Part shown: positions 26,212 to 38,257 of the stretch, one piece after another
How positions within the stretch are numbered: position 1 is the stretch's first letter
Layout: every line of letters begins with the position of its first letter
NCBI RefSeq assembly: GCF_012952295.1
Contig: NZ_JABBCH010000016.1
Span: 1-64,000 of the forward strand
Direction: 5' to 3'
Origin: Crystallibacter degradans
GTDB lineage: Bacteria; Actinomycetota; Actinomycetes; Actinomycetales; Micrococcaceae
Length of the DNA: 64,000 nucleotides
Translations under genes and position numbers: made by a program
Notes under the pieces: generated by a model
Told to the model about the DNA's origin: nothing
The model's database searches: none
Seen by the model: the letters and a program-made list of their open reading frames with translations, nothing else

Positions 26212-27486
26212 TCAGTTGGCGAAGACGTCCTGCAGCTGGCCCTGCGGGGTCCACAGCGCCACGGAGTCGCCGCCGTTGTTCAGCACCGAAGCGGTGCCAT
26301 CGTTATAGAAGCTCTCCGCGGTGTTGGTGCCGGGGCCGGTGTAGACACGCAGTTCGGCGCCCGGGGCCAGGACGTATCCGTCACCGATGGCGAGGATGTT
26401 GTTCGCCGCGTCGCGGATGATGCTGCCGCTGACATCAATGCTGCGATCGGTGGTGTTGCGCAGGAGCACGTGCTCGCCGGTTTCCGCCTGGACGTCGCTG
26501 CCGGCCGGGTTGTTGACCGAGTCCACGATTTCGACGCCGTTCGCCGAGGGGAAGGGCTTTCCGCCGTCGAGGTAGCGGGCAGTCTGGATCGGGAAGTCGC
26601 CGGTGACGGCGTCGACGCCGAGGTCGATGGAGTGCTGGACGGCCTCGGGGGAATTGGCGGTGTAGACGCCGATGACCAGACCGGCGGCCTTGACGTCGGC
26701 GACGTTCTGCGCGGTCAGCGTGCGGTAGTTGGTGCCCACGGAATCGGCGAACTCGGCCCACTGGGCCAGGGTTTCCGGTCCGGGAACGGTGCTGGAGAGC
26801 TGCTGCAGCTCGATCTCCGGGGCGATCGAGGCGAAGGTCCGGTTGGAGGCCTCGTCGAAGCTGAGCACCTGGATCTTGTCCGCGGCTACCAGTTTCTGCC
26901 ACTTCTTATCCGTGCGCAGCTCATCGGCGACCAGCTGCTCGATGCCCGGCGAGTTCTTCGGGGACTTGATCTCGATGTACACGCCGGTCTCGGTGGTGGC
27001 GACCTTGGCTGCGTCGTCCAGGTGCGGGATGCGTTCGCCGGCGAATTCCTCGCCGAAGTAGGCGCCGGCATCCAGCTGCTGAAGCTCCGCCCAGGTGAAG
27101 GACGTGATCGGATCGTTGGCGCGGTCAGGGAAGACCCCCTCGACGTTGGTGGTGCGGGCCGGAGTGTCGTCGTGGAAGAGGAACGGCACGCCGTCGGCGC
27201 TGAGCTGGACGTCGATCTCGAAGAAGTCCGCACCGGAGGCCCGGCCATCCTTGAACGCAGCGACGGTATTCTCCGGTGCCGTGCCGGCGGCACCGCGGTG
27301 CCCGATGAGCAGCGGCGCTTCGGCCTGGCTGCCGGCCGCGGTGTCCTTCGCGGCTGCGTCGGCGGTGTTGGCTGTGCCAGGCTGCGGCGCAGTCTGCTGG
27401 GCATCGGCGGCGGGCGCCGCGAGCAGGGACAGCGCGACGGTGGCCGCGGCTGACCCGGTCAGAAGCGTGGTGATGCGTGATGCCAT
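26212..27486 (-). CDS. Secreted glycerophosphodiester phosphodiesterase with C-terminal lamin-tail domain
   Basis: A 424-residue exported protein. The signal peptide is MASRITTLLTGSAAATVALS continuing LLAAPAADA. The GDPD TIM-barrel has the catalytic LLIGHRGAAGTAPENTVAAF and FFEIDVQLSADGVPFLFHDD motifs, with later YIEIKSPKN and VIGVYTANSPEAVQHSIDLG. After about residue 320 a lamin-tail-like (LTD) beta-sandwich follows (GEHVLLRNTTDRSIDVSG; PGAELRVYTGPG; GDSVALWTPQGQ). It hydrolyses glycerophosphodiesters to glycerol 3-phosphate plus alcohol outside the cell. ATG 27486 has GAAGGAAG upstream. Confidence 0.88.
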   Translation of the reverse strand: MASRITTLLTGSAAATVALSLLAAPAADAQQTAPQPGTANTADAAAKDTAAGSQAEAPLLIGHRGAAGTAPENTVAAFKDGRASGADFFEIDVQLSADGVPFLFHDDTPARTTNVEGVFPDRANDPITSFTWAELQQLDAGAYFGEEFAGERIPHLDDAAKVATTETGVYIEIKSPKNSPGIEQLVADELRTDKKWQKLVAADKIQVLSFDEASNRTFASIAPEIELQQLSSTVPGPETLAQWAEFADSVGTNYRTLTAQNVADVKAAGLVIGVYTANSPEAVQHSIDLGVDAVTGDFPIQTARYLDGGKPFPSANGVEIVDSVNNPAGSDVQAETGEHVLLRNTTDRSIDVSGSIIRDAANNILAIGDGYVLAPGAELRVYTGPGTNTAESFYNDGTASVLNNGGDSVALWTPQGQLQDVFAN

Positions 27487-27631
27487 AAGAATTGAACTTC
27501 CTTCATCCTGGTGGTCGATATCCCCTTGATCGATGCTGGCGCGTGGTTGCATCCGGCACGCCAACGCTGAACCCGGAATGAAGGGCGGGAAAAGGTGGAC
27601 GCGGAGTGCCGGCCGCCACTAGATTACGAGC

Positions 27632-28267
27632 ATGTCTCAAGATGGGGGAACCAACGATCCTGCCGCTGCCGGTGGCCGGACAGATCCTACCGGTCCGGCA
27701 CGGCACGATCCTTCGCCGCCGGGACGGCCGCAAAGACCGCAGTTGTCCGACCGGACGCCGCCGCCAATAGGGCAGACACTGCCACCCACCGGCATGGTAA
27801 AGGCGGCGAGATCGTTGTGGCTGTTGAGCTTCCTGCTCGGCGCGGTGGCCATCGCCTTTGCCTACCTATCCAGCGACGACCGGCTGGAACGGCTCCGCGA
27901 GATCGTGACCGAGGTTGACCCCGCCCAGGACGAAGCGTCGGTCGACGCGGTGGCTGCCCTGGTGCACTGGGGCAGCCTGGGCGCACTGGCACTCATCATT
28001 GTGGTCGAGGCGCTCCTGCTGCGCGGGCTGATGCACCGGCGGGGCTCGGTCCGGTGGGTGCAGCTGGTGGTCCTCCTGCTCCACGCCGGAGCGGCGGTCC
28101 TGGCGGACGCGTTCCTCGTGGCTCCCGGCGAGGGCGAAGTGTACCTCCGCTGGATGCTGGTAGCGCAGGTGGTGCTAGCCTGTGCGGCGCTGCTGGTCAG
28201 TCTGCTGCCCGGCGCCGACGCCTGGTTCCGCGCCAAGCACGAGACGTACGGTAGGCCGCGGGGCTGA
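27632..28267 (+). CDS. Hypothetical membrane protein with Pro-rich N-terminus, 211 residues
   Basis: Not recognised. About 50 residues of Pro/Gly/Arg-rich cytoplasmic tail (RTDPTGPARHDPSPPGRPQR) precede four membrane segments. One follows VKAARSLWLLSFLLGAVAIA; others are at LGALALIIVVEALLL, WVQLVVLLLHAGAAVLADAF and LVAQVVLACAALLVSLL. TAGATT (27620-27625) is 6 nt before the ATG, suggesting a leaderless transcript. Its last 93 nt overlap the 3' end of the convergent dynamin gene. Confidence 0.72.
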   Translation: MSQDGGTNDPAAAGGRTDPTGPARHDPSPPGRPQRPQLSDRTPPPIGQTLPPTGMVKAARSLWLLSFLLGAVAIAFAYLSSDDRLERLREIVTEVDPAQDEASVDAVAALVHWGSLGALALIIVVEALLLRGLMHRRGSVRWVQLVVLLLHAGAAVLADAFLVAPGEGEVYLRWMLVAQVVLACAALLVSLLPGADAWFRAKHETYGRPRG

Positions 28268-29818
28268 GCCGTCCGGCAGCCTGGCGAGGACCGCCTCGCA
28301 GCTGCGGACCACAATCTGGCAGGCTTCCGCGGCACTGCGGTCGGTCATCGGGTTCTCGGCCAGTGTGCGCCAGCGGCGCAGGCAGGCCAGGGCTTCGCCC
28401 CGCAGTGCCTCCGACGACGTGCCGTCGGGCAGGCCGAGCCGGAGTGCGGGCAATATCCCCCGGCCGCCGATCAGGCGTTCGGCCTCTGACGCCAACTCCT
28501 TGGGCAGGTCCAGGCCCGTGGTCCGAGCGGTAGCCAGCAGGCGCAGCTCCCGGAATTCATGGGCACCGGCCTGGATCCGTTCGAGCAATGCTGCCACCCG
28601 CTCCGTTCCGGCCCGGGGCCGCTCGCGGAGAAGGGCCTCCACAGCGGCCAAGGCGGTCCGCGCCTTGAGCTGTGTGGCGCGGGCCTGGAACTGGCCGGAC
28701 ATCAGATGAAGCAGGTCATCCAGTCCGCTGCGGCGGGCGAGCTCGTGCGCCAGCGCCGTCGGTTCGCCGATGCCGCCCCGGATAAGAGCCGTTGACATCC
28801 GGATTCCGAACAGGCCAAACCGTTCCAACAGGGCTGCCCGGACCTCGGGACCGGCTTCCAGCCCTTCGGCGGGACGGGCAAACCTGTCGGCAGAGAGCAG
28901 CATACGTTCGCGTTCCGACCGGTCCAGCCGGGCCAGTTCCAGCAACGCAGTGAACTCCGCTTGACGCAGGGTACGCGCACTTTGGGCCAGCAGGCCAGCG
29001 ATGGGCACGACGCCCAGGGCCAGTGAGCGCAGGGTGCCGTCGCGCCGGTAGCGTTCGGCGATCTCGCCTGCCGAAAGCAGTGAGTCGATCCGTCCGGCGC
29101 CGATCTCATCTGCGCGCGAGAGTACTGCGAGCGCGTTGACTGTCCCCGACTGGCCTGCCGCAGTGTCCTTGAAGGCCTCCAAGAACCTCAGGTCGGCGGC
29201 ATGCAGGTGGCGCATCAGGTAGACCATGGCGTCGGCTTCGGAGGGCGTATCCCGGGGCGTGAGGAAATCTGTGGAACGCGCGGACACCTCGCCCGAGAGC
29301 GAAGCTATGCCCGGGGTGTCGATCAGGGTCAGCTCCCGCAGTCCCTTGGCTGGCCAGTCCACCACCAGCCGGTCGACCTCCTCGGCGCGGGTGGCGCCCA
29401 TGTCGAAGACCAGCCTGCCCTCAACTCTTCTGATGGGCAGTGTTCGAGGTTCAGTTGCAGGTCCGCCTGGTCCGCCGAGCGCCGGGTACAACGTGATCCG
29501 CGGGGTGTCCCGGAAGCGGTACCAGGTCACCACGCGGGTGCACTCGGCGGTGTCGGTGGGCGCGATCTCCTCCCCGATGATGGCGTTGAGCAGTGTGGAC
29601 TTCCCGGCCTTCACCATGCCGGCGATCGCCACCCGCAATGGTTCGGCAAGCCGGCGCTGGTACCCCTCGAGCGCGCGCCGCGTATCCGGATCATCCGCGT
29701 ACGCCTCGATGGCCTGCCGCAGGAGATCCGGAACGGCGTCGATGGCGGAACCGTTCGCGCTGGAGCCGTTCACCCCGGAGCCGTTCACCCCGGTGCCGTT
29801 CACCCCGGTGCCGTTCAC
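28175..29818 (-). CDS. Dynamin-like GTPase, second of a tandem pair (IniC-like)
   Basis: A 547-residue dynamin-family GTPase. The P-loop is GMVKAGKST (about 67-75), switch residues lie in the TDTAECTR region, G3 is LIDTPG followed by IASLSGE, and G4 is the degenerate SRAD in VLSRADEIG. A long helical stalk-like C-terminal part has no obvious membrane segment. The N-terminus is a 15-bp repeat coding VNGTG/VNGSG. The GTG start overlaps the stop of the first dynamin gene by four bases, so the two are probably made as a pair that may assemble together, as proposed for IniA/IniC. It is last in the Hsp70-LuxR-IniB-dynamin cassette. Confidence 0.85.
   Translation of the reverse strand: MNGTGVNGTGVNGSGVNGSSANGSAIDAVPDLLRQAIEAYADDPDTRRALEGYQRRLAEPLRVAIAGMVKAGKSTLLNAIIGEEIAPTDTAECTRVVTWYRFRDTPRITLYPALGGPGGPATEPRTLPIRRVEGRLVFDMGATRAEEVDRLVVDWPAKGLRELTLIDTPGIASLSGEVSARSTDFLTPRDTPSEADAMVYLMRHLHAADLRFLEAFKDTAAGQSGTVNALAVLSRADEIGAGRIDSLLSAGEIAERYRRDGTLRSLALGVVPIAGLLAQSARTLRQAEFTALLELARLDRSERERMLLSADRFARPAEGLEAGPEVRAALLERFGLFGIRMSTALIRGGIGEPTALAHELARRSGLDDLLHLMSGQFQARATQLKARTALAAVEALLRERPRAGTERVAALLERIQAGAHEFRELRLLATARTTGLDLPKELASEAERLIGGRGILPALRLGLPDGTSSEALRGEALACLRRWRTLAENPMTDRSAAEACQIVVRSCEAVLARLPDGSAPRPTVRLVLGAEPGVGAGQQTDQQRRTG
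29768..29818. repeat. 15-bp tandem repeat at the junction of the two dynamin genes
   Basis: Three full units (29768-29782, 29783-29797, 29798-29812) plus six bases of GTTCACCCCGGTGCC, with one A/T difference in the first. On the minus strand each unit supplies GTGAAC, so there are several in-frame GTG codons, and the upstream gene's stop lies in the first one. Confidence 0.85.
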
Positions 29819-31644
29819 ACCTTGCCTGCCAGGGCCGGCTCGCTGTCCAACTGCTGGGCATGTCTGCGCAGGGTGTCGACGCGCTTAAGCACGGCCTTGA
29901 TCTCCCGGATACGCTGTTCACGTTCGAGCGTGTAGCTGGCCGCGGCTTTTTGCGCGGCGAGCACGGAGTCCGACAGGGAGCGGTGGTGTTCCTCGGCGAT
30001 TTCGGTGAAGTGGTCGCGCGTTCCGCGCTGGACCAGCCGGAGCCGGTCTTTGAGCTGTTTGCCGACTTGGAAGACGACTTCGTCAATTTGCCGGCGCACC
30101 AGTGTCTTCGCTTCGTTTTGGCGCCGTTTGAGTCGGGCTTCCTTGTCTTCGCGGTAGGCTTTCCCGCCGAGCAGCAGACCTGCGCCGACGGAGAGCGGGT
30201 TGATCAGCGACATGCCGACGATGCCGGTGAGCAGGCCGAACATCAGCACGCCGCCGTAGGAGCCGCGCATGCCAATGAGGATTTTCTGCAAGGGGCTGAG
30301 CCGGCCGGGGTCCAGCGCCGGGACGGGGACAACCGGGTCGAGCACGTCGTCTGTGTCATCGACCTGGAGGACCGGCAGGGGCACTTCGTCCTGGGCGAAG
30401 TGTTCGGCGACCTGTCCGGAGAGCCATTGTGCGCGTTCGTTGGTCCAGACGAAGGTGTCCGAGACGGCGGACGCAACGCGTTGTTCCAGCCACTCGGTGA
30501 ACTGTTCCCAGACCGGTCCCGGGTCTGCTGCGTCGATGGCCTGTTCGGCATCACGCTGGATGCTGCGCAGCCGGTCGCGCAGGTCGTGTTCCATGTCGGC
30601 GATGAGGTCGCTGACGCCGTCGTTGAGCGTCGTCTGCCAGCGTGCGGAACGCTGGCGCTGCACGTCGGCGCGTTCCTTGGCCGCTTCCAGCCCGGCGATC
30701 ATCTGCGGGGTGCCTTCCGGGTTTTGAAGCGCACTGAGTTCGGATTGCAGCGACAGGCGCAGGTGTTCGGTGCTGGAGAGCAGGTCGTGGGCGACGGAGC
30801 GGCGCTGGAGCCGTTCGGCCTGGCCGAGGACTTCCTGGCGCAGGTAGGTCACGAGCGCGGGAAAGCCGGATTCGGCGTTGAGTTCGTTGTCGTTATGACG
30901 GGCTGCGTGCAGGCGCAGTTCGGAAGAGACCGGCAGCAGCGGGATGTCCGGGCCGACATTATCCAGGTGGCCCCGGTCCAGTTCCGCGACCTGCCGCCAC
31001 TGCGGGTACAGGTCTGTTTTGGAGAGTACGCAGGCCACGTTGGGGCAGATTCGCATGGCTTGGCGCAGGAACCGGATCTCTGGCTCCGTGTACTCCTGTG
31101 AGGCGTCGGAGACCAGCAGCATGGCATCCGCCGTCGGCAGAGCGGTCAGGGTGGTGAACGAATGGGTCGAATTCAGGCCGCCGACCCCGGGAGAGTCCAC
31201 CAGGGTCAGCCCGCCGGAGAGGAGCTTCCGCGGCAGGGAGACTTCAGCGGCGGCAAGGCGGCGGCGGTTGCCGGGATTGCCGTTCTCGGACACGTAGGCG
31301 GCGAGGTCCTCGATGGGCACCTGGCGGCGCTCGAGTTCCGGTTCGCCGTCGCCGTCCTGGCTGCCCTCCCGGGGAACCATGATGGTGGCGGAGGCCGGGT
31401 CCCCGTGCCGGACCACGGTTGGCACGGAGGTGGCGATATCGTCGTCGACCGGGCAGACAGGGGCGTTGACGAGCGCGTTGATCAACTTGCTCTTGCCCTG
31501 CTTGAACTCACCGACCACGATCACGCGGACATTCGGATCGAGCACCCGCCGGCGGGTTTGCTCCAGCCTGCGGCGCAGATCCGCCCGATCGGCATCCGCC
31601 GCCAGTTCGATGCTCTGCTCCACGAGCTTGACCAGTTCTGCCAT
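29815..31644 (-). CDS. Dynamin-like GTPase, first of a tandem pair (IniA-like)
   Basis: A 609-residue bacterial dynamin. G1 is VVGEFKQGKSKLINALV (P-loop about 45-52), G3 is LVDSPGVGGLN (about 150-153) and G4 is LSKTD (about 208-211). A hydrophobic hairpin at about 462-495 (GGVLMFGLLTGIVGMSLINP) is the likely membrane-binding paddle, as in IniA, and a charged helical tail follows. It should bind and remodel the inner leaflet of the membrane in a GTP-dependent way. It lies 107 nt after the iniB-like gene, with a hairpin in the gap, and overlaps the second dynamin by four bases. Confidence 0.88.
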   Translation of the reverse strand: MAELVKLVEQSIELAADADRADLRRRLEQTRRRVLDPNVRVIVVGEFKQGKSKLINALVNAPVCPVDDDIATSVPTVVRHGDPASATIMVPREGSQDGDGEPELERRQVPIEDLAAYVSENGNPGNRRRLAAAEVSLPRKLLSGGLTLVDSPGVGGLNSTHSFTTLTALPTADAMLLVSDASQEYTEPEIRFLRQAMRICPNVACVLSKTDLYPQWRQVAELDRGHLDNVGPDIPLLPVSSELRLHAARHNDNELNAESGFPALVTYLRQEVLGQAERLQRRSVAHDLLSSTEHLRLSLQSELSALQNPEGTPQMIAGLEAAKERADVQRQRSARWQTTLNDGVSDLIADMEHDLRDRLRSIQRDAEQAIDAADPGPVWEQFTEWLEQRVASAVSDTFVWTNERAQWLSGQVAEHFAQDEVPLPVLQVDDTDDVLDPVVPVPALDPGRLSPLQKILIGMRGSYGGVLMFGLLTGIVGMSLINPLSVGAGLLLGGKAYREDKEARLKRRQNEAKTLVRRQIDEVVFQVGKQLKDRLRLVQRGTRDHFTEIAEEHHRSLSDSVLAAQKAAASYTLEREQRIREIKAVLKRVDTLRRHAQQLDSEPALAGKV

Positions 31645-31686
31645 ACCTGCCTCCTCCTGGGTGCCAACGGCCTAACGCACAGACCT

Positions 31687-31720
31687 GCCCGGCAGGATCC
31701 CCCTTCCCTTCCTGCCGGGC
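31687..31720 (-). terminator. Hairpin between the iniB-like and dynamin genes (possible partial terminator)
   Basis: GCCCGGCAGGA (31687-31697) and TCCTGCCGGGC (31710-31720) around a 12-nt loop, 32 nt after the iniB-like stop and 43 nt before the first dynamin gene. No T-run follows, so partial read-through or mRNA 3'-end protection is likely. Confidence 0.55.
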
Positions 31721-31751
31721 CGGCTGTGCACCGTTGAGTCTGAGTCGATGA

Positions 31752-32987
31752 TCAGTCTTGGACTACGACTGCACTTTCCTCGACCTCGTTGCCTGCAACG
31801 ACGAAGTTGTCTTCGACGTTGGTCGACTCTTCGTTGAAGGACTCTTCGAACTCGACCTCGAGGTCGGTGTTCTGGGAGTTGTCCTGGAACGAATCGTTGA
31901 TCAACGTGTTCTCGGAGTTGTCTGTGAATTCGTCGTTGTCCTCGAACTCGAACTCCGTGGTGGTTTCATTGCCGACATTATCGAGGTTGTTTTCTTCATT
32001 GCCGACGTCGTTGCGGTTGCCATCGATGCCGTCGTTGTCTTCGCTGTTGTCCTCGTTGCCAACGATGTTGTTGTTGCCGTCAATGCCGTCGTTGTCCTGG
32101 AAGGAGTCCTCGATCTCGACATCAACTTCGGTCTTGTCGACGTCAACGTCGTTGTTGTTGCCGTCGATGCCGTCGTTGTCCTCGTTGCCGACTTCGTTGC
32201 GGTTGCCGTCAATCCCGTCGTTGTCTTCGCTGTTGTCCTCGTTGAAGGATTCGTCGATGTCGACTTCCTTATTGAAGGAGTCCGTGACGGTGGTGTCCTC
32301 ACTGCCGATTTCGACGTCGGCGTTGCCCTCTGCCTCAATGTCGATGTTGGTGGAGTTGTCTTCGGAGTTGTCCTGGTCAACATCGTCGCCGGCAGCGATG
32401 GAATCATCACCGTTGGCTACATTCGCGTCCTTGCCGGCGGCAACCGAGTCGTCACCGGACGCGATGACCGCGTCGTTGTCGAAGATCTGGGTGACGTCGC
32501 CATCGGCCCAGATGTTCTGGTTCACGGACTGGTCGTTGATGGTATCCCGGTCATCCACGGTGGAGGTGTAGGAGTACTCGTTGACGATGTGGGTCAGCTG
32601 CTGGACCGCGTGGCCGTGGTCGTCGTCGTCGCGGTGTCCGTGGTCATCGTCGTCCCGGCCACGGTCCTCGTCGCGGTCCCAGTCGCGGCCGCCGCCCCCG
32701 CCGCCGCCGTCGTCGTTGTTATTTCCCCCGTCGCTGTCCGGATTGTTGTGGTCGATCCGCGAGGAGTTGTCCCCCGTGTTGTACTCGCGGTCGAAGGAAG
32801 CACCGACGCCAACCGGGGCGAAGTCGAGCACTACCGGCATGACCGCGTCGACATCGTCCGAGCAGACGTCGCTGAGGCCGGCGTGCTCCAGCTCCCGCTC
32901 GGGGTCCTCGCGGAAGGCGTGGGCCGCCTCGGGATCCCGGAGCAGGTTCATGATGAATTCAAGAAGGGTGTTCGCAAGTGTAGGCAT
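31752..32987 (-). CDS. IniB N-terminal-domain protein with extremely acidic Asn/Asp repeat region
   Basis: A 411-residue protein. The first ~60 residues (ANTLLEFIMNLLRDPEAAHA then FREDPERELEHAGLSDVC) match the IniB N-terminal domain. A Gly/Asp/His low-complexity section follows (GGGGGGGRDWDRDEDRGRDD, then two DDDDHGH). The rest is a D/E/N/S-rich array with recurring NDGIDGNRNEVGN, NDGIDGNNN and EDNSEDN units and GDDSIAAGDD segments, almost without basic residues. IniB in mycobacteria is a Gly-rich cell-wall-stress protein of unknown structure. The repeats here could bind cations or form a disordered or fibrous layer; that is speculation. No signal peptide is visible. Confidence 0.85.
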   Translation of the reverse strand: MPTLANTLLEFIMNLLRDPEAAHAFREDPERELEHAGLSDVCSDDVDAVMPVVLDFAPVGVGASFDREYNTGDNSSRIDHNNPDSDGGNNNDDGGGGGGGRDWDRDEDRGRDDDDHGHRDDDDHGHAVQQLTHIVNEYSYTSTVDDRDTINDQSVNQNIWADGDVTQIFDNDAVIASGDDSVAAGKDANVANGDDSIAAGDDVDQDNSEDNSTNIDIEAEGNADVEIGSEDTTVTDSFNKEVDIDESFNEDNSEDNDGIDGNRNEVGNEDNDGIDGNNNDVDVDKTEVDVEIEDSFQDNDGIDGNNNIVGNEDNSEDNDGIDGNRNDVGNEENNLDNVGNETTTEFEFEDNDEFTDNSENTLINDSFQDNSQNTDLEVEFEESFNEESTNVEDNFVVAGNEVEESAVVVQD

Positions 32988-33084
32988 GGTATTCCCTCAA
33001 TCTGAAAGGTGTGTGAACTTGGTTTCGCCGAGCTGGTTGCCTGGCTTGCTTCAAACGTAGGTCCGGGGTGGCGGGGCCTGCATC

Positions 33085-33129
33085 GGGGTTATCTCCCCCT
33101 GTGCGGCTACCCCCAATAGGGGTTTGGAC
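33085..33129 (-). promoter_or_regulatory. Candidate LuxR-regulator site upstream of the iniB-like gene
   Basis: AGGGGTTTGGAC at 33118-33129 (plus strand) is identical to 38017-38028 upstream of the Hsp70 gene. Next to it are two G/C dyads, CCCCAATAGGGG (33111-33122) and GGGGTTATCTCCCC (33085-33098). It lies 98-142 nt upstream of the start, in the 153-nt gap after the luxR stop, so the iniB-like gene can have its own promoter. Confidence 0.55.
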
Positions 33130-33140
33130 GTCCCCCAGCA

Positions 33141-35750
33141 TTAGGGAGGACCGGATGCTTCCTCGCCCAGCGATAGGCGCAGTTGCGCCAGCAGCTCCGA
33201 GCGTGTGGCGGCCCCCAGCCGGCGGCGGATCCTGGCGATGTGGTGCTCGGCAGTGCGAGGCGAGATGAAGATCGCGGCGCCGATTTCGCGGTACGTCTTG
33301 CCTTCCAGCACCAGCCGGGCGACCTCACGCTCTCGGGGACTCAGGACCGCACCCTCCGAGCCGGCGTCGGCCGGCTGTCCTGCCGAAGGCCTAACGGTGG
33401 TACGGACCGCCGGCAGCGTTGGAACGGGCTCGGTTTCCGCGCTGACGGAGACCACGGATCCGGGATGAAGGTCCCGGGCGCAGGCGAGCAGCCTGGCCAT
33501 GTCCTTGCGCTCGTCGGCGCGCGGGGCGGCATGGCCGGCCAACCGGGAGCCGTCCCAGGTCATCCCGACCGCGGCCAGCCCGCGTGCCGCAGCTTCAACC
33601 GCGTCGACGTCGATATGGCCGGCAAGGACTGCTACCCAGGACCGGCCGGCGGCCGCCAGGACGGAGGCCAGATGGTTATTCCCGGAGGCACGGACCAGCG
33701 CCGATGCATGGGGCGCAAGGTCCGACGGCCGCTCCGCCAGGATGGCGGCCTGGACCGCGTGCCAGCGCAGCGGAATCGACCACAGCGGAGGATCACCGAG
33801 ACGCTCCAGCAACGCCCAGGCCTCGGCGAGCTGCGGCTCCAGCCGGGCCGAATCACGCAGCCGCGCGGCCGCGACGGCCAGTTCACCGAACGGCAGCAGG
33901 CTGTAGAGGTCCACCGAGACGTGCAGGATGCGCTCGCGGGCGCGCTGCCAGGCGTGGACGAGGGCAGCGGTGTCATCGGTCCGGCGAGCCAGGCCTACTT
34001 CCAGCGCGTCGAACAGCAGCTCGTCCCGGGGCGCGAGCCCGCCCTCGCAGGCGCCGGCTTCGGTGATGGCCGCACGGGCCCGGTCCGGGCGGTCCAGCTG
34101 CATGGCCGTCCAGGCGCGCAGCAGCAACAACCTGGGACGCGCCGCCGGGCCGGCCTGCTCTCCGGCCAAGGCATCGTCCAGAACGGAGTCGGCCACGGCC
34201 GGTTCGCCGCTGTGCAGGGCCACCAGCGCAGCCAGCGCCGCCGGGACTTCCGGGAGCGGAATGCTGCTGCCGGACGCCGTCATCATGTCCGATGCCCGGA
34301 TCAGGGCGGGCAGGGCATGGGTTGGTTGCGCCGCAATGGACGCGCTGATCCCCTCCCCCATAAGTCCGACGGCGACAGCGGCGAGCGTGGGCGAGCCGCT
34401 TGGCCCCGGGGCCTTGAGCATGGTTTCGGCGCCTTCGCGGTCGCCAATGCCGATCATTGCGACGGCGGCTAGCGAAGCCGAGGGGCCGGTCCTGTCCGCT
34501 CCCAGCCACCGGTAGACTTCCGCACTGCGTACCAGCATGCCGCGCTGTGCCCAGGTGGCCGCGGCTACGTCCACCCCGCGGAGGAGGTCGGGGGCACCTT
34601 CGCTAGAGAGCAGGTTGTCCAAAATCCGGCCGGCGCCGTCAAGGTCGCCCACGGCGGAGGCGGCCTGGGCCCGGCGGGCCGCGGTAGTGAGTTCGTCGGA
34701 GCCGGCGGCGCCCGCTTCATCATAGAGGGCTGAGGCGAGCGCGGGCCGTTCGGCCAGCACGTTGTCGCCTTCGCGCTCCAAGGCCCGGGCGATCCGCGGG
34801 TCCCTTAATCCGCCGCGCGCGAGTCCGCGGGCGACGTCGCCGAGTGAACGTCCCTCCGCGGTGAAGGCATCCACCAGCGCCCGCTGCGCCTCGCGGACCC
34901 GGTACGGCGGTGTCGCGGCCAGCACGGCCTGGCGCACCAGCGGGACCAGCCTTCCGTCCGCGCGCAGCAGCCCCGCGGCCCGCGCCCTGGTGACCAGGTG
35001 GTCGAGGCTTTCCGCGGCCTGGTCCAAGGCTGGCGGCATTTGCCCGGCGAGGTCGAAACCGACGCTCAGGGCGAGCAGCAGGTCGGACAGTCCGCCGTCG
35101 ATCTTTTCGAGTTCGTAGCCAAGCTGGTCCATCAGACCACGCGAACGGTGCGGTTCAGCCAGGACACTGCTGCCATGCCGGCCGATCGCTTCCACCACCA
35201 GGTGCACCAGCCAGGGCATGCCGGCGGTAGCCTCCGCCAACTTGTCCACGAGCGACGCCGTGGGGGCAGCTTCCAGCACTTCCGCAGCCCGCGCGTGGAT
35301 CTCCTCGCGGGACAGCGGCCCGAGGATCACCGGGGCGTGATGCTGCTCCAAGACGTCGGAGAGACGTCTCAATGCGCCCGGCTGCGGCCAGGGCCGGTAC
35401 GCAACCACGAGGTTTACGTCCCGCTCCTCGACCACCGAAGCGAGCTGGGCCAAGGCCCTATCGCTGAGTCCATGAGCGTCATCGATCAGCACCGCACCGC
35501 GTGCATTGACCGTGCAGAGATCGAGATCCGTGGCGCTGAGGTCCACGCAATTGCGCAGAACATGGAGGCCCATGGCGCTGTACTGTGCTTCAAGATCGTC
35601 CAGCAAAACGGTCTTCCCTGTTCCGCCGGCACCAACGATACCGGCCAGCAACCGCGATTCCGGAGCGGCCGCTACCTCGGCCAGGAAAGAGGCAGCAACG
35701 GTGGGGCGGAGCGGGCGCGATCCGATCCCCGCGAAACTTGTCTCCACCAT
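33141..35750 (-). CDS. Large LuxR-family regulator with AAA/STAND ATPase domain
   Basis: An 869-residue MalT/LAL-type regulator. The N-terminal ATPase has Walker A GIVGAGGTGKTVLLDDL (about 37-53) and Walker B AVLIDDAHGLSD. A long alpha-helical, Ala-rich TPR-like sensor region occupies about 200-790. The C-terminal LuxR HTH is LSPREREVARLVLEGKTYRE with IGAAIFISPRTAEHHIARIR. Such proteins are ATP-dependent switches that oligomerise and activate transcription on ligand binding. The ATG is one base after the Hsp70 stop, so the two are coupled. By position it is the probable regulator of the cassette, as IniR is reported to be for iniBAC in mycobacteria. Confidence 0.88.
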   Translation of the reverse strand: MVETSFAGIGSRPLRPTVAASFLAEVAAAPESRLLAGIVGAGGTGKTVLLDDLEAQYSAMGLHVLRNCVDLSATDLDLCTVNARGAVLIDDAHGLSDRALAQLASVVEERDVNLVVAYRPWPQPGALRRLSDVLEQHHAPVILGPLSREEIHARAAEVLEAAPTASLVDKLAEATAGMPWLVHLVVEAIGRHGSSVLAEPHRSRGLMDQLGYELEKIDGGLSDLLLALSVGFDLAGQMPPALDQAAESLDHLVTRARAAGLLRADGRLVPLVRQAVLAATPPYRVREAQRALVDAFTAEGRSLGDVARGLARGGLRDPRIARALEREGDNVLAERPALASALYDEAGAAGSDELTTAARRAQAASAVGDLDGAGRILDNLLSSEGAPDLLRGVDVAAATWAQRGMLVRSAEVYRWLGADRTGPSASLAAVAMIGIGDREGAETMLKAPGPSGSPTLAAVAVGLMGEGISASIAAQPTHALPALIRASDMMTASGSSIPLPEVPAALAALVALHSGEPAVADSVLDDALAGEQAGPAARPRLLLLRAWTAMQLDRPDRARAAITEAGACEGGLAPRDELLFDALEVGLARRTDDTAALVHAWQRARERILHVSVDLYSLLPFGELAVAAARLRDSARLEPQLAEAWALLERLGDPPLWSIPLRWHAVQAAILAERPSDLAPHASALVRASGNNHLASVLAAAGRSWVAVLAGHIDVDAVEAAARGLAAVGMTWDGSRLAGHAAPRADERKDMARLLACARDLHPGSVVSVSAETEPVPTLPAVRTTVRPSAGQPADAGSEGAVLSPREREVARLVLEGKTYREIGAAIFISPRTAEHHIARIRRRLGAATRSELLAQLRLSLGEEASGPP

Positions 35751-35751
35751 G

Positions 35752-37758
35752 TCACCCTTCCGGTGCAGGAGCCGGTGCGGTCGCGGGCACTTCCGGAGCG
35801 GGCGCGGACGGCACCGGGTCAGCAGCCGGTTCCGTGGCCGCGGGCGCTGGCGGCGCGGGTTCAGGCGGCGCAGGTTCAGGCGGTGCGGGGGCGGGCGGGT
35901 CGGAGGCGGGAGCCGTCTGTTCCGGGGCAGGTGGCTCGGGCGCCGGCGTCTGCGGGATGTCGGGAGCAGGCGTCACCGGCGGCTCCGCTGTGGTCGGCGG
36001 CTGTGTGGCCGGGGGTTGGGCGGGCGTCGTCGGTGCGGGACCGGTTGCCGGCGGCTCCGGCTGTGGCGCCGGGGCGGTCGACTCTTGTGCGGGCTGGCTC
36101 GTTCCCTTTGTTGTCGGCTTCGGCGTGCTCGACGAAGAGTCCGGGCGGCGTGCGTTTGTGCCTGCGGTAGAGCCCTTCGGCGGTGTGGCCTTGCCGCCGT
36201 CGTTATTTCCTGCCCCCGCAGTCCCGTCCGCGGGCGCTGTCCCGGCGGCCGGACTGCCGTCTGCATCCACCGCCTGCCAATTATCAGTAATCGGGGTCTC
36301 GCCGCTGCCGTCCAAGGCCTGTATTCCTGCCGGTCCACCCGCGCCTGATCCCTGCGGTCCGGCAGCGCCGCCGGGCGGCGGAGCCGTCCCCGCTGCGCCT
36401 TCCTCTTCCGAAGCCTGTGCCCCCGCTGCCCCCGCCGCCAACGGATTCATCTCCGCCGGGCTCTGTGCCGCTGTGGCGGTCAGGATGGTGAGCGTGGCGA
36501 CGACGGCTGCTACCGCCGTCATCCGGGCACCCGTCCGGGGGTGCGCCGGTTTAGCGGAAGCCACGGGCGCGCTCGTCCCGATGTCAGTCCCGAAACGGTG
36601 ACCGTGACTGTGAAGGTCCGCCTCCTCAGACGCGGCCGGACTGGCCGGAGCAGCCTGCGCTCCGGCAGTTACCGGAGCCAGCATGGCCGCGGCGGAGAAC
36701 GCCGCGCCCAGCGAGATGGAGGCCTTGGGATCGGCGTCGATAGCGATCGGCCGGTTGAACTCCGCCGAGAGCAACTGGGCCACGAGCGGGATGCGCGAAG
36801 AGCCGCCGATCAGGAGGATGGCGCTTAGGTCCCCGGCATCGGTGTCTGCCGCCTGCAGCGCACGCTTGAGCGCCTCGATGGTCTGCTGGACGCCGTCGCC
36901 GATCATGCCTTCGAACTCCGAGCGCACCAAACGAATCTGGCTTTGGCCGCCCGGAAGAAGTACGGGAATGGAGGCCTCCGAATCCGTGGACAGGGCTTCC
37001 TTCGCCTCCGTGCATTCCCGGCGGAGCCGCACAAGCGCCATCAGCACTCCCGGGTCACTGGTATCGAGGCCGGTCAGAGCGTCTGCCGCGCAGGCAGCAA
37101 CGTGGCGGAAGACGGCGTCGTCGAAATCGGCGCCGCCGAGGCGTTCAATTCCCTCGGGACGCCCGAGCGTGCGGAAAGTCTCCGCACTGCTTTTCTGCAG
37201 TACGGCCGCGTCGAAGGTCCCGCCGCCGAGGTCGTAGACCGCGATGGTGCTGCCCTCATCAACCCGTTCCTGCGAGGCATAGTGCACCGCTGCAGCCTCC
37301 GGCTCGCTGACCAGCGTTACCTCGGCAAGCCCGACGCCGGCCAGGGCTTGCCGGACCAGGTCTTTTTTATAGCCTCCCCAGCTGGCCGGATGCGCGATGG
37401 CGATGGCGGCAGGCGGCTCCCCCTCGCGCTCCTGGGCACGGTCGACCACCCAACGTGCCATGGTGGCGACAATATCCTCGGGCGCCACAGACAGGTCGCC
37501 GACGACGATGGGGACGGCATCGCCCACACGACGTTTGAATTCACGTACCAACCGGTCCGGGTGCGTTGTTCCGCGGCGTTCGGCCGCCTCGCCCACCAAG
37601 ACCTGCCCGTCTTCGCCGAGGAAGATCACCGATGGCACCGCGCCGCCGCGTACACCCAGGTTCAGGACCTGCGGCGCCGGATGTCCTGCACTGTCCAAAC
37701 GCGCAACGGCCGCAGCGGAAAAGCTCGTGCCAATATCAATACCAAGTACAAAGGCCAT
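35752..37758 (-). CDS. Hsp70-family protein with single membrane segment and Pro/Ala-rich tail
   Basis: A 668-residue DnaK-like protein. The ATPase domain (about 1-345) has phosphate-1 VLGIDIGTSFSAAAVARL, phosphate-2 AVYDLGGGTFDAAVLQ and adenosine motif ILLIGGSSRIPLVAQLL. There is no recognisable substrate-binding beta-sandwich. A membrane segment (MTAVAAVVATLTILTATAAQ, about 410-430) is followed by roughly 230 residues rich in Pro, Ala, Gly and Glu that would lie outside the membrane. It is therefore an anchored actin-fold ATPase rather than a classical chaperone. ATG 37758 has GGGGGAG upstream. It is first in the cassette and coupled to the LuxR gene. Confidence 0.87.
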   Translation of the reverse strand: MAFVLGIDIGTSFSAAAVARLDSAGHPAPQVLNLGVRGGAVPSVIFLGEDGQVLVGEAAERRGTTHPDRLVREFKRRVGDAVPIVVGDLSVAPEDIVATMARWVVDRAQEREGEPPAAIAIAHPASWGGYKKDLVRQALAGVGLAEVTLVSEPEAAAVHYASQERVDEGSTIAVYDLGGGTFDAAVLQKSSAETFRTLGRPEGIERLGGADFDDAVFRHVAACAADALTGLDTSDPGVLMALVRLRRECTEAKEALSTDSEASIPVLLPGGQSQIRLVRSEFEGMIGDGVQQTIEALKRALQAADTDAGDLSAILLIGGSSRIPLVAQLLSAEFNRPIAIDADPKASISLGAAFSAAAMLAPVTAGAQAAPASPAASEEADLHSHGHRFGTDIGTSAPVASAKPAHPRTGARMTAVAAVVATLTILTATAAQSPAEMNPLAAGAAGAQASEEEGAAGTAPPPGGAAGPQGSGAGGPAGIQALDGSGETPITDNWQAVDADGSPAAGTAPADGTAGAGNNDGGKATPPKGSTAGTNARRPDSSSSTPKPTTKGTSQPAQESTAPAPQPEPPATGPAPTTPAQPPATQPPTTAEPPVTPAPDIPQTPAPEPPAPEQTAPASDPPAPAPPEPAPPEPAPPAPAATEPAADPVPSAPAPEVPATAPAPAPEG

Positions 37759-38257
37759 GGACTCCCCCAACAATGCGCGATCGACCTCGGTCGTCCCCAC
37801 CCGTGAACGGGCTTTCAGTCAGAGCAGTGCGATGCTCCCCAATAAGCCAGGCAAAGATCCATGCCATGGATGCGGCATGTCAGCGGACCTCATTACCTCC
37901 GCTGCGGTGACGCTCAAAGGTGCTTCAGTGATGATCGCCGGTTCCCAGCCGGCCCACTCGTTGTCTTTGCCTGACCCCAACTCCTTCAGGTTAGGAGCCC
38001 TTCTGTTGGAATAGCAAGGGGTTTGGACCCCGTAATCCCGCGGGAAAACACCTTTGTCCGTGGTTAATGGATTAGGTAGGCCTATACGTCTTGAATGGTG
38101 CAATCCCTGGGGCTGACGGGCGGGCTATCGATCTCATCCTTCGGACTGATGCCGCCCGCCGTGCGGGAAATCTAGACTCTCAAACGGGGGTTGGAAAAAT
38201 CGTGGCCGACCGGAAACTGGCTGGCACTGCACCCCGGATGGACCGAGGGAACGGGGG
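37759..38257. other. Long gene-free control region upstream of the Hsp70 cassette
   Basis: About 500 bases without a supported gene. Short frames on both strands lack homology or ribosome sites. The region includes the shared 12-nt motif at 38017-38028 within GGGGTTTGGACCCC (38018-38031), itself a dyad. It is A+T-richer around 38040-38100 and probably carries the divergent promoters of the cassette and the small membrane protein gene. Confidence 0.5.
38017..38031 (-). promoter_or_regulatory. Candidate LuxR-regulator site upstream of the Hsp70 gene
   Basis: AGGGGTTTGGAC (38017-38028) repeats the site in front of the iniB-like gene exactly. With the following bases it forms the dyad GGGG-TTTGGA-CCCC. 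It lies about 260 nt upstream of the Hsp70 start. Confidence 0.55.

Follow-up and report, generated by a model that had tools for sequence, protein, structure and literature searches.

The iniBAC operon of mycobacteria is well known for its induction by drugs, and in M. tuberculosis this response occurs although we know of no Hsp70 gene at its iniR. IniR activates iniBAC in mycobacteria, with an IniR ChIP peak directly upstream of the operon (PMC5760070), and mycobacterial IniA cuts membranes in vitro (PMC6715688). The iniR, iniB* and iniBAC genes of Mycobacterium tuberculosis and M. marinum (PMC5760070) share with the locus described here an IniR-type regulator, an IniB N-domain protein and a pair of IniA and IniC-like dynamins. 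Since IniR is already known as their activator, the core of the cassette is a known system. New here are a near-constant Hsp70-like member, a four-TM gene, a bipartite promoter element and an uneven loss of the IniR NTPase domain and of Hsp70 catalytic residues. A DnaK-related gene adjoins iniR in M. smegmatis as well, mentioned in one sentence of PMC5760070 and not characterised in that paper; in the loci analysed here, one Hsp70 gene usually lies upstream of iniR and encodes a membrane segment and tail in place of the substrate-binding domain.

An Hsp70-headed iniBAC-type cassette

The window, a stretch of 64,000 nucleotides of Crystallibacter degradans contig NZ_JABBCH010000016.1, contains a cassette of five minus-strand genes and a facing plus-strand gene, with the following features:

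27632..28267, plus strand: four-TM gene, 211 aa, four predicted TM helices, tail-to-tail with iniC with overlapping 3' ends
28175..29818, minus strand: iniC-like second dynamin gene, 547 aa, overlapping iniA by 4 nt
29815..31644, minus strand: iniA orthologue (dynamin-like), 609 aa, 502.4 bits to M. smegmatis IniA 6j72 over residues 2-595
31752..32987, minus strand: iniB homologue, 411 aa, IniB N-domain (helical) with a conserved DQSVNQNIWADGDV block and then acidic D/N repeats of predicted disorder
33054..33059, minus strand: -10-like hexamer TACGTT, 25 nt past the CCCC arm, read from the sequence
33080..33145, minus strand: putative IniR operator before iniB, CCTAAT ... CCCCTATTGGGGG ... GGGGG-N6-CCCCGATGC
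33141..35750, minus strand: iniR homologue, 869 aa, N-terminal NTPase with Walker A/B, extended middle region, C-terminal LuxR-type HTH
35752..37800, minus strand: Hsp70-like gene, 682 aa, GTG start, ATPase domain at about 1-375, predicted TM at about 427-445, Pro/Ala-rich tail
37988..37993, minus strand: -10-like hexamer TAACCT, 24 nt past the CCCC arm, read from the sequence
38018..38076, minus strand: second copy of the bipartite element, upstream of the Hsp70-iniR unit, CCTAAT-N-GGGG-N6-CCCC

A preliminary description of this DNA had listed five minus-strand genes in a row, and all five were found in the ORF list, including the 869-residue LuxR/AAA gene (35750..33141), with the reported 1-nt spacing between the Hsp70 and luxR genes and the 4-nt overlap of the dynamins. 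Its interval of 28175-38031 reaches the promoter-like element at 38018-38076, but the Hsp70 open frame starts at 37818, short of 38031. Likewise, its five members stand, but it had missed a sixth conserved gene, the four-TM gene, which starts outside that interval. A homologue of this gene adjoins the second dynamin in 76 of the 80 named loci (best 80 of 550; see below); Pfam and NCBIfam searches returned no match for its product.

The suggested relationship to iniBAC was borne out. The first dynamin is an orthologue of IniA, and its partner is IniC-like, matching the second dynamin of mycobacterial-type ini loci (358 bits in L063, for example). The acidic repeat protein indeed carries an IniB N-terminal domain (NF038175, 75.3 bits, above the curated cut-off of 40). 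No known fold was assigned to IniB: its model, with a mean pLDDT of 52, shows structure only at residues 1-56 and in a further helix at 121-137, and a Pfam YadA_head match was not significant. The iniR product matched NF038181 with 475.8 bits over positions 3-823 of 827 and, because this lies below the curated 750-bit cut-off, we name it an IniR homologue and not an equivalog. Among the features of MalT-type STAND/LuxR proteins, it carries Walker A (GAGGTGKT), Walker B and a C-terminal LuxR HTH; Pfam detected the HTH and matched AAA/STAND models only under their cut-offs, and the HTH was also the only part to match in a sequence comparison with solved structures. Compared with iniBAC of M. tuberculosis and M. 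marinum, the window cassette differs in that its iniR, iniB and dynamin genes share a single strand and are headed by the Hsp70 gene, in its acidic, D/N-rich IniB, in an IniR below the NCBI cut-off and in the added four-TM gene.

In the Hsp70-like protein, residues 18-372 align to profile positions 1-374 of 599 of Pfam HSP70, and because the match ends there the substrate-binding part is absent; the Pfam search detected none, and the aligned region is followed by a hydrophobic stretch from residue 427 (KD19 1.88) and a 237-residue tail with 25% Pro and 23% Ala. This is the architecture that had been proposed for it, a DnaK-type ATPase with a predicted membrane segment and a Pro/Ala tail. The best PDB match of its AF2 model was DnaK, with the predicted TM helix weakly modelled (pLDDT about 30). 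All catalytic-site positions checked, whose names we take to be those of DnaK, are conserved. By its architecture, as read from the sequence, the protein is not a chaperone, and the label 'chaperone' finds no support, also in view of the ATPase residues lost in mycobacterial-type relatives. The ATPase domain is probably cytosolic and the tail outside. Besides DnaK, the only Hsp70 genes in this genome are the two in ini loci. In two congeners the gene is either disrupted or mis-assembled: the Hsp70 match of G003 contains three TGA stops, and G009 has no more than remnants of the gene, on a contig of 3 kb.

Conservation of the gene set and of the two ATPases

The named loci are the best 80 of 550 confirmed IniA-anchored stretches and come mostly from close relatives. 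Separation of the five genes in relatives had been set beforehand as one of two outcomes that would refute the cassette, and it was not observed. All five families were present in 60/60 of the loci with complete 10-kb flanks (best 80 of 550), which argues that their grouping is not due to chance, and in 70/80 overall, the other 10 being shortened by contig ends. In all 70 named loci with both genes (best 80 of 550), the Hsp70 gene preceded iniR in the same orientation, including 22 with the dynamins on the opposite strand; of 46 Hsp70-iniR gaps measured to the nearest possible iniR start (best 80 of 550), 44 fell between -4 and +10 nt. Among the 69 Hsp70s above 200 bits in these named loci (best 80 of 550), 64 have a predicted TM (KD19 of at least 1.6) and 65 a Pro-rich tail. 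The module is patchy within the class, a strong IniA occurring in 37 of 394 genomes. In a class-wide sample, an Hsp70 above 100 bits was found in the locus of 36/38 strong IniA places and in 36/38 loci found via IniR; of the 22 weaker IniA places (two G355 pieces aside), 12 were covered. The Hsp70-like gene is therefore a near-constant member of the cassette. Two loci depart from this: no Hsp70 was found near the iniR of L077, and L081, whose iniR copies stand where a contig begins, gave an Hsp70 match of just 57 bits. An apparent Hsp70-IniR fusion in L130, a frame of about 1380 residues, was rejected, since it reads as if the frame shifts within the low-complexity tail and then continues into the iniR start.

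Conservation of the ATPases is uneven. Many Arthrobacter relatives have an IniR without the NTPase domain, and 34 of 105 loci encode an Hsp70 with missing or changed catalytic residues, indicating that ATP hydrolysis by Hsp70 is not generally needed; in mycobacterial-type relatives these residues are gone while TM and tail are retained. At least one intact ATPase, in Hsp70 or IniR, is kept in 101 of the 105 loci. The count of 105 leaves out truncated loci (L089, L097, L100, L101, L102, L109, L110, L117), duplicates (L090, L096, L103, L106) and loci without a qualifying Hsp70 or IniR match. A strict rule of one ATPase or the other was rejected, given the four loci without either and an independent-pair tree test (104 loci, L191 also left out) with 7 and 8 changes and a median p of 1, and complementary loss between Hsp70 and IniR is only a suggestion.

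Bipartite promoter elements

The pattern CCTAAT-N25..55-GGGG-N6-CCCC has exactly two matches in the 4.96-Mb genome, one before each presumed transcription unit of the cassette. Across 10 congeneric genomes, the iniB form of the element has nine matches, all of which precede an iniB. Upstream regions of the named loci (best 80 of 550) contain a CCCTA-type element before 62/79 iniB genes, compared with 0/80 for iniC, 2/80 for iniA, 1/76 for iniR and 8/72 for Hsp70. The layout before iniB is shared with mycobacterial-type iniB promoters, CCCCTAA repeats and the GGG(G)-N6-CCCCG inverted repeat each occurring in 13/14 of them (three of the inverted repeats by a looser pattern) and in 0/18 iniA upstreams; three of 25 opposite-strand loci with short upstream sequence were left out of this comparison. 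An EM motif was built from 71 of 79 iniB upstreams (best 80 of 550), near-duplicates or short ones being left out, and its match count is partly circular because of this origin. The congener scan, the mycobacterial-type promoters, the per-gene upstream counts and the own-genome pattern count are independent of it. Before the Hsp70-iniR unit, a general IniR site was rejected: the bipartite pattern occurs there in the own clade (4/10 congeners) and not generally, GGGG-N6-CCCC preceding Hsp70 in only 10/72 loci (best 80 of 550).

IniR is the putative binder of the element before iniB in this strain. HpoR, another regulator, binds the mycobacterial iniBAC promoter at a different palindrome (PMC13413693), and, as other regulators bind there, IniR is a candidate rather than the proven binder of the element. 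The conserved element offers a ready reporter.

Possible roles of the membrane-anchored Hsp70-fold protein

Gene content, order, conservation, domain architecture and conservation of the promoter element were observed, and on this basis we propose, with moderate confidence, that the cassette is an IniR-controlled, iniBAC-type membrane or envelope-stress module of an Arthrobacter-type soil bacterium, in which a membrane-anchored Hsp70-fold protein is the partner or sensor of IniR. It probably comprises two transcription units in the same orientation, one of Hsp70 and iniR and one of iniB, iniA and iniC, with the four-TM gene facing them; the product of the latter, like the Hsp70-fold protein, may contribute to stress sensing. 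The Hsp70-fold protein would sit in the membrane, with the ATPase domain on the cytosolic side and the Pro-rich tail reaching into the cell wall, and would be co-produced with IniR, which it may hold or prime. Envelope damage, the presumed signal, would change the state of the pair; IniR would then bind the element upstream of iniB (within this clade, also the copy upstream of its own unit), IniB, IniA and IniC would be made abundantly, and the dynamins could cut or reseal damaged membrane. To our knowledge the host lineage lacks mycolic acids, and a signal from trehalose mycolates could therefore hardly be the same here. Such gating would work like the E. coli activator MalT with its partner MalK, a model of mode of action only, in which a membrane-bound ATPase partner holds a STAND/LuxR activator, with no membership claimed. 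MalT, an activator of the STAND type, binds the maltose transporter (PMC5760070), whereas the partner proposed here would be an Hsp70-fold protein, not an ABC ATPase, in a putative interaction.

A more specific version, which we offer tentatively, is that the Hsp70-fold protein is a transmembrane receptor that directly gates IniR, with a Pro-rich tail that spans the wall (in f32 relatives the outer part has 252 residues and is not rich in Pro) and an actin-fold ATPase on the inner side. It would supply the ATP-driven switch where IniR of Arthrobacter relatives lacks the NTPase domain, and would be a pseudo-ATPase scaffold in mycobacterial types, where IniR keeps its own. If true, this would supply the iniBAC response with its missing sensor and put the Hsp70 fold to a new use, as receptor and not chaperone. 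More broadly, the partner-or-sensor proposal would make the Hsp70 fold a transmembrane signalling or scaffold part, and since dozens of soil actinobacteria encode this conserved protein alongside IniR, the question of the IniR signal becomes testable outside pathogens. IniR overexpression sufficed to induce a reporter in M. smegmatis, a species that itself has the dnaK-like gene (PMC5760070). This observation and the M. tuberculosis response noted at the outset count against the proposal.

A possible but rather doubtful alternative places the Hsp70-fold protein on the effector side, as membrane anchor or as a factor that uses ATP to assemble or take apart the machinery of IniB and the dynamins, its adjacency to iniR reflecting only operon economy. 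Two f32 loci (L205, L209) hold Hsp70 and the dynamin pair without IniR, which also counts against an exclusive Hsp70-to-IniR role; the sole Hsp70 adjoins the second dynamin in the mycobacterial-type loci L075 and L078, two Hsp70 genes adjoin dynamins in L098, and in 10 of 18 mycobacterial-type loci a further Hsp70 lies next to the second dynamin or behind iniR (downstream of iniR in 5/18). In five f31 loci (L082, L083, L084, L089, L097), Hsp70 is divergent from iniB and does not adjoin iniR, which counts against the Hsp70-IniR pairing. Against the effector-side role, however, Hsp70 stays with iniR in 70/70 loci even with the dynamins on the opposite strand (best 80 of 550), and the more distant dynamin pairs L211-L216 have Hsp70 in 0/6 loci.

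That the protein is a genuine foldase or holdase for IniB or the dynamins is improbable: the DnaK-type nucleotide-binding domain of the protein encoded in the window, with the checked catalytic residues present, would fit, but Pfam finds no substrate-binding domain, and catalytic residues are lost or altered in the 34 loci counted above, with TM and tail kept in the mycobacterial-type ones.

Dynamins, a STAND-type regulator and an Hsp70 reduced to its nucleotide-binding domain could also form an anti-phage or conflict system, and PADLOC matched the first dynamin to LeoBC (55.6 bits) and the second to LeoA (39.1 bits). Some actinobacterial and firmicute conflict neighbourhoods centred on GTPases, among them those of GAP1-N2, likewise hold an Hsp70 domain without the peptide-binding domain near the GTPase genes (PMC7159879); dynamin, IniB and IniR have no occurrence in the main text of that paper. 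We consider a defence role very improbable and rejected this identity, as the Leo matches are weak and the best match of the first dynamin is IniA, near full length and at 502 bits far over LeoBC; PADLOC aligned just 45 residues of the switch and 64 of the Hsp70, and gene order and promoter element are conserved.

Finally, that the five genes are neighbours by descent with no shared function is hardly credible: most of the best 80 of 550 loci are close relatives and therefore not independent, but order and strand are rearranged between clades with linkage kept, mycobacterial-type, f31 and f58 loci also retain the set, the flanking GDPD gene recurs in just 4 of 87 loci and the flanking AraC gene in 3, and none of the 60 complete loci (best 80 of 550) has its genes separated.

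Identity and extent of the cassette

The preliminary description of this region had proposed a relative of iniBAC made up of five minus-strand genes, for an Hsp70-like protein, a LuxR/AAA protein, an acidic protein and two dynamins, and their order, strand and spacings were all borne out. The LuxR/AAA protein matched the NCBIfam model of IniR with 475.8 bits over positions 3-823 of 827, below the curated cut-off of 750, and the acidic protein carries an IniB N-terminal domain scoring 75.3 bits, above the NCBIfam cut-off of 40. The first dynamin, which matched M. smegmatis IniA with 502.4 bits over residues 2-595, is by its sequence an IniA orthologue. In the Hsp70-like protein the catalytic residues are intact; its Pfam HSP70 match was limited to the nucleotide-binding part, which AlphaFold modelled with high confidence and the remainder with low confidence, and a Foldseek search with this model returned DnaK as the best match. 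The five-gene extent proved incomplete, as a conserved sixth gene of the module had been missed:

27632-28267, plus strand, gene product of 211 aa, predicted to have four TM helices

This four-TM protein gave no family match in Pfam or NCBIfam. A homologue adjoins the second dynamin in antiparallel orientation in 76 of the 80 named loci (best 80 of 550), and among 80 collected sequences of the family four helices were predicted in 73 and three in 7. In Microbacterium-type loci (L170 and L195, for example) the gene follows iniB and shares its strand. Its profile found no match in mycobacterial-type g59, f31 or f32 loci, nor beside the cassette copy on contig C34 of the own genome; in L218, an f22 locus, a weak 35-bit match occurred in the same place.

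IniR control of iniBAC (PMC5760070) and membrane fission by IniA (PMC6715688) are already published. An Hsp70 component of IniR/iniBAC is mentioned in only one sentence, in the available text of PMC5760070, within a searched literature that was mostly open and included few preprints. As far as these searches show, the cassette is an iniBAC-type module that includes two parts unstudied in that literature, namely the Hsp70-fold partner, a predicted transmembrane protein, and the four-TM protein.

Conservation, distribution and gene order

The named loci were collected from the genome collection with IniA as sole anchor and, because they are the best 80 of 550, represent close relatives; the closest one listed among them is Arthrobacter sp. 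VKM Ac-2550 (IniA identity 99%). All five families occurred together in 70 of these best 80 of 550 and in all 60 of those with complete flanks, so that the co-occurrence check proposed in the preliminary description found the set kept together. In the class-wide sample of 394 genomes, IniR-like matches above 200 bits were found in 38 genomes, most of the others matching IniR solely via the common HTH, and 36 of the 38 IniR-found loci had an Hsp70 match above 100 bits (exceptions L077 and L081). IniA matches above 700 bits marked 38 places in 37 genomes of the same sample, and a cassette-type Hsp70 was present in the fetched neighbourhoods of 36 of them; in G172 it sits on a neighbouring contig end, and in the fetched neighbourhood of G393 (L077) none was found. 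Weaker IniA relatives served as control, 12 of 22 places being fetched: a cassette-type Hsp70 lay beside the dynamins in 2/12, both f32 loci, and L206 held a 22-bit Hsp70 fragment at the locus end. A search for Hsp70 in the dynamin-pair loci L211-L216 found it in 0/6. The own genome has DnaK and two Hsp70 genes in ini loci, and no others. Altogether, the case for an iniBAC-type module in the window is strong.

The distribution of the module is patchy. The IniB domain scored above cut-off in 8/59 relatives, all of them congeners or the own genome, and the Hsp70 match contains stop codons in one genus member (G003) and is a remnant in another (G009). Two f22 genomes encode a true DnaK with a substrate-binding domain (L207 2977-4875; L218 10861-12768) about 2.6 and 5.8 kb, respectively, from the second dynamin; a search of gene neighbourhoods for a dnaK-like gene might be misled by them.

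Wherever a named locus has both genes (70 of 70, among the best 80 of 550), Hsp70 precedes iniR and shares its strand. Within these 70, all genes point in one direction, as in the window, in 48 (including L152, where frames are split), and the dynamins are on the opposite strand in 22, mainly from Microbacterium and relatives. In most mycobacterial-type loci, Hsp70-iniR and iniB*-iniB-iniA-iniC point away from each other, and 10/18 have a second Hsp70; in five f31 loci it is Hsp70 and iniB that point away from each other, with iniR located apart. Neighbours outside the cassette are not conserved (GDPD 4/87 and AraC 3/87 related loci); the window GDPD gene (26212..27564, minus strand) codes for a fusion of glycerophosphodiester phosphodiesterase with a lamin-tail domain. 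On contig C34 of the own genome (G000; L004 2495-12334 and L109 8757-10091) the five-gene cassette recurs in divergent form, with a 57% identical Hsp70 and iniR split into two overlapping frames, and there is also a third iniB, preceded by a promoter element of its own.

A putative promoter element before iniB

An EM motif derived from 71 iniB upstreams of named loci (best 80 of 550) is an inverted repeat, GGGG-N6/7-CCCGATGC, which in several Microbacterium-type loci is almost palindromic (GCATCGGG...CCCGATGC). When 1.586 Mb of loci were scanned, 73 of 110 matches above 13 bits lay before iniB, a partly circular count. Opposite-strand dynamin-unit upstreams were kept out of motif building. In these loci a second D/N-repeat gene comes first in the dynamin unit (D/N-rich frame in 21/22, with the DQSV block common to IniB in 16/22), and the motif occurred upstream of it with at least 13 bits in 15/22, compared with 54/880 shuffles (all among the best 80 of 550). 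Examples of this acidic D/N/S-repeat gene upstream of the first dynamin are found in L170, L183, L188 and L192.

Further upstream than the inverted repeat, a CCCTA-type element was present in 62/79 iniB upstreams of named loci, compared with 2/80 for iniA, 0/80 for iniC, 1/76 for iniR and 8/72 for Hsp70 (best 80 of 550 throughout). When it was combined with the iniB half-site and searched for in 10 congeneric genomes, each of the 9 matches lay before an iniB, and the own genome accounted for three; the reversed control pattern gave 1. G006 has iniB, yet the combined pattern gave no match there. The pattern CCTAAT-N25..55-GGGG-N6-CCCC matched exactly twice in the own genome, with one site preceding iniB and the other the Hsp70-iniR unit, and each followed by a TAnnnT hexamer 24-25 nt on; across the 10 genomes it matched 9 times, 7 in the cassette and 2 elsewhere (reversed pattern, 1). 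Of 14 mycobacterial-type iniB upstreams, 13 contained the inverted repeat, 3 of these when the pattern was relaxed, and 13 contained CCCCTAA repeats. Neither was found before iniA in 18 mycobacterial-type loci, and upstream of iniB* single CCCTAA words occurred in 18/18, with the inverted repeat absent. For M. tuberculosis, the available text of PMC5760070 reports an IniR ChIP peak directly 5' of iniBAC, and that of PMC13413693 describes another regulator, HpoR, binding a different palindrome at the iniBAC promoter. We infer that the putative element before iniB may be bound by IniR.

The Hsp70-fold protein and the IniR NTPase

Among the 69 Hsp70s of the named loci (best 80 of 550), 64 have a TM-like stretch and 65 a Pro-rich tail. 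In 105 loci, both the Hsp70 and IniR ATPases were intact in 33; Hsp70 was intact in a further 36 with IniR lacking the NTPase domain and in 2 with a degenerate IniR Walker A, the IniR Walker A was present with Hsp70 residues lost or altered in 30, and both were lost or altered in 4. This reciprocity was not significant after taking the tree into account. In 39/105 loci (e.g. L124 and L145) the IniR homologue lacks its N-terminal NTPase domain. This lack is real in Arthrobacter, Pseudarthrobacter and Paenarthrobacter relatives, because a possible iniR start lies few bases past the Hsp70 stop and leaves no space for the domain.

In f32 Hsp70s the outside part comprises about 252 residues and is not Pro-rich, and the Hsp70 outer part is therefore exchangeable, as in receptors. 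The Hsp70 may gate the module, the possibility raised in the preliminary description; in view of these f32 loci, it may instead have an effector-side role. L205 (5434-7581) and L209 (6533-8761) encode an Hsp70 ATPase domain, a TM segment and an outer part of about 252 residues; the gene adjoins the dynamin pair, with a protein with a possibly amphipathic helix at its start encoded in between, and these loci had no IniR or IniB_N match. In L088 (10997-15319), the Hsp70-like protein reaches 1440 residues, and a very long acidic/Arg-rich stretch separates its ATPase domain from the TM segment.
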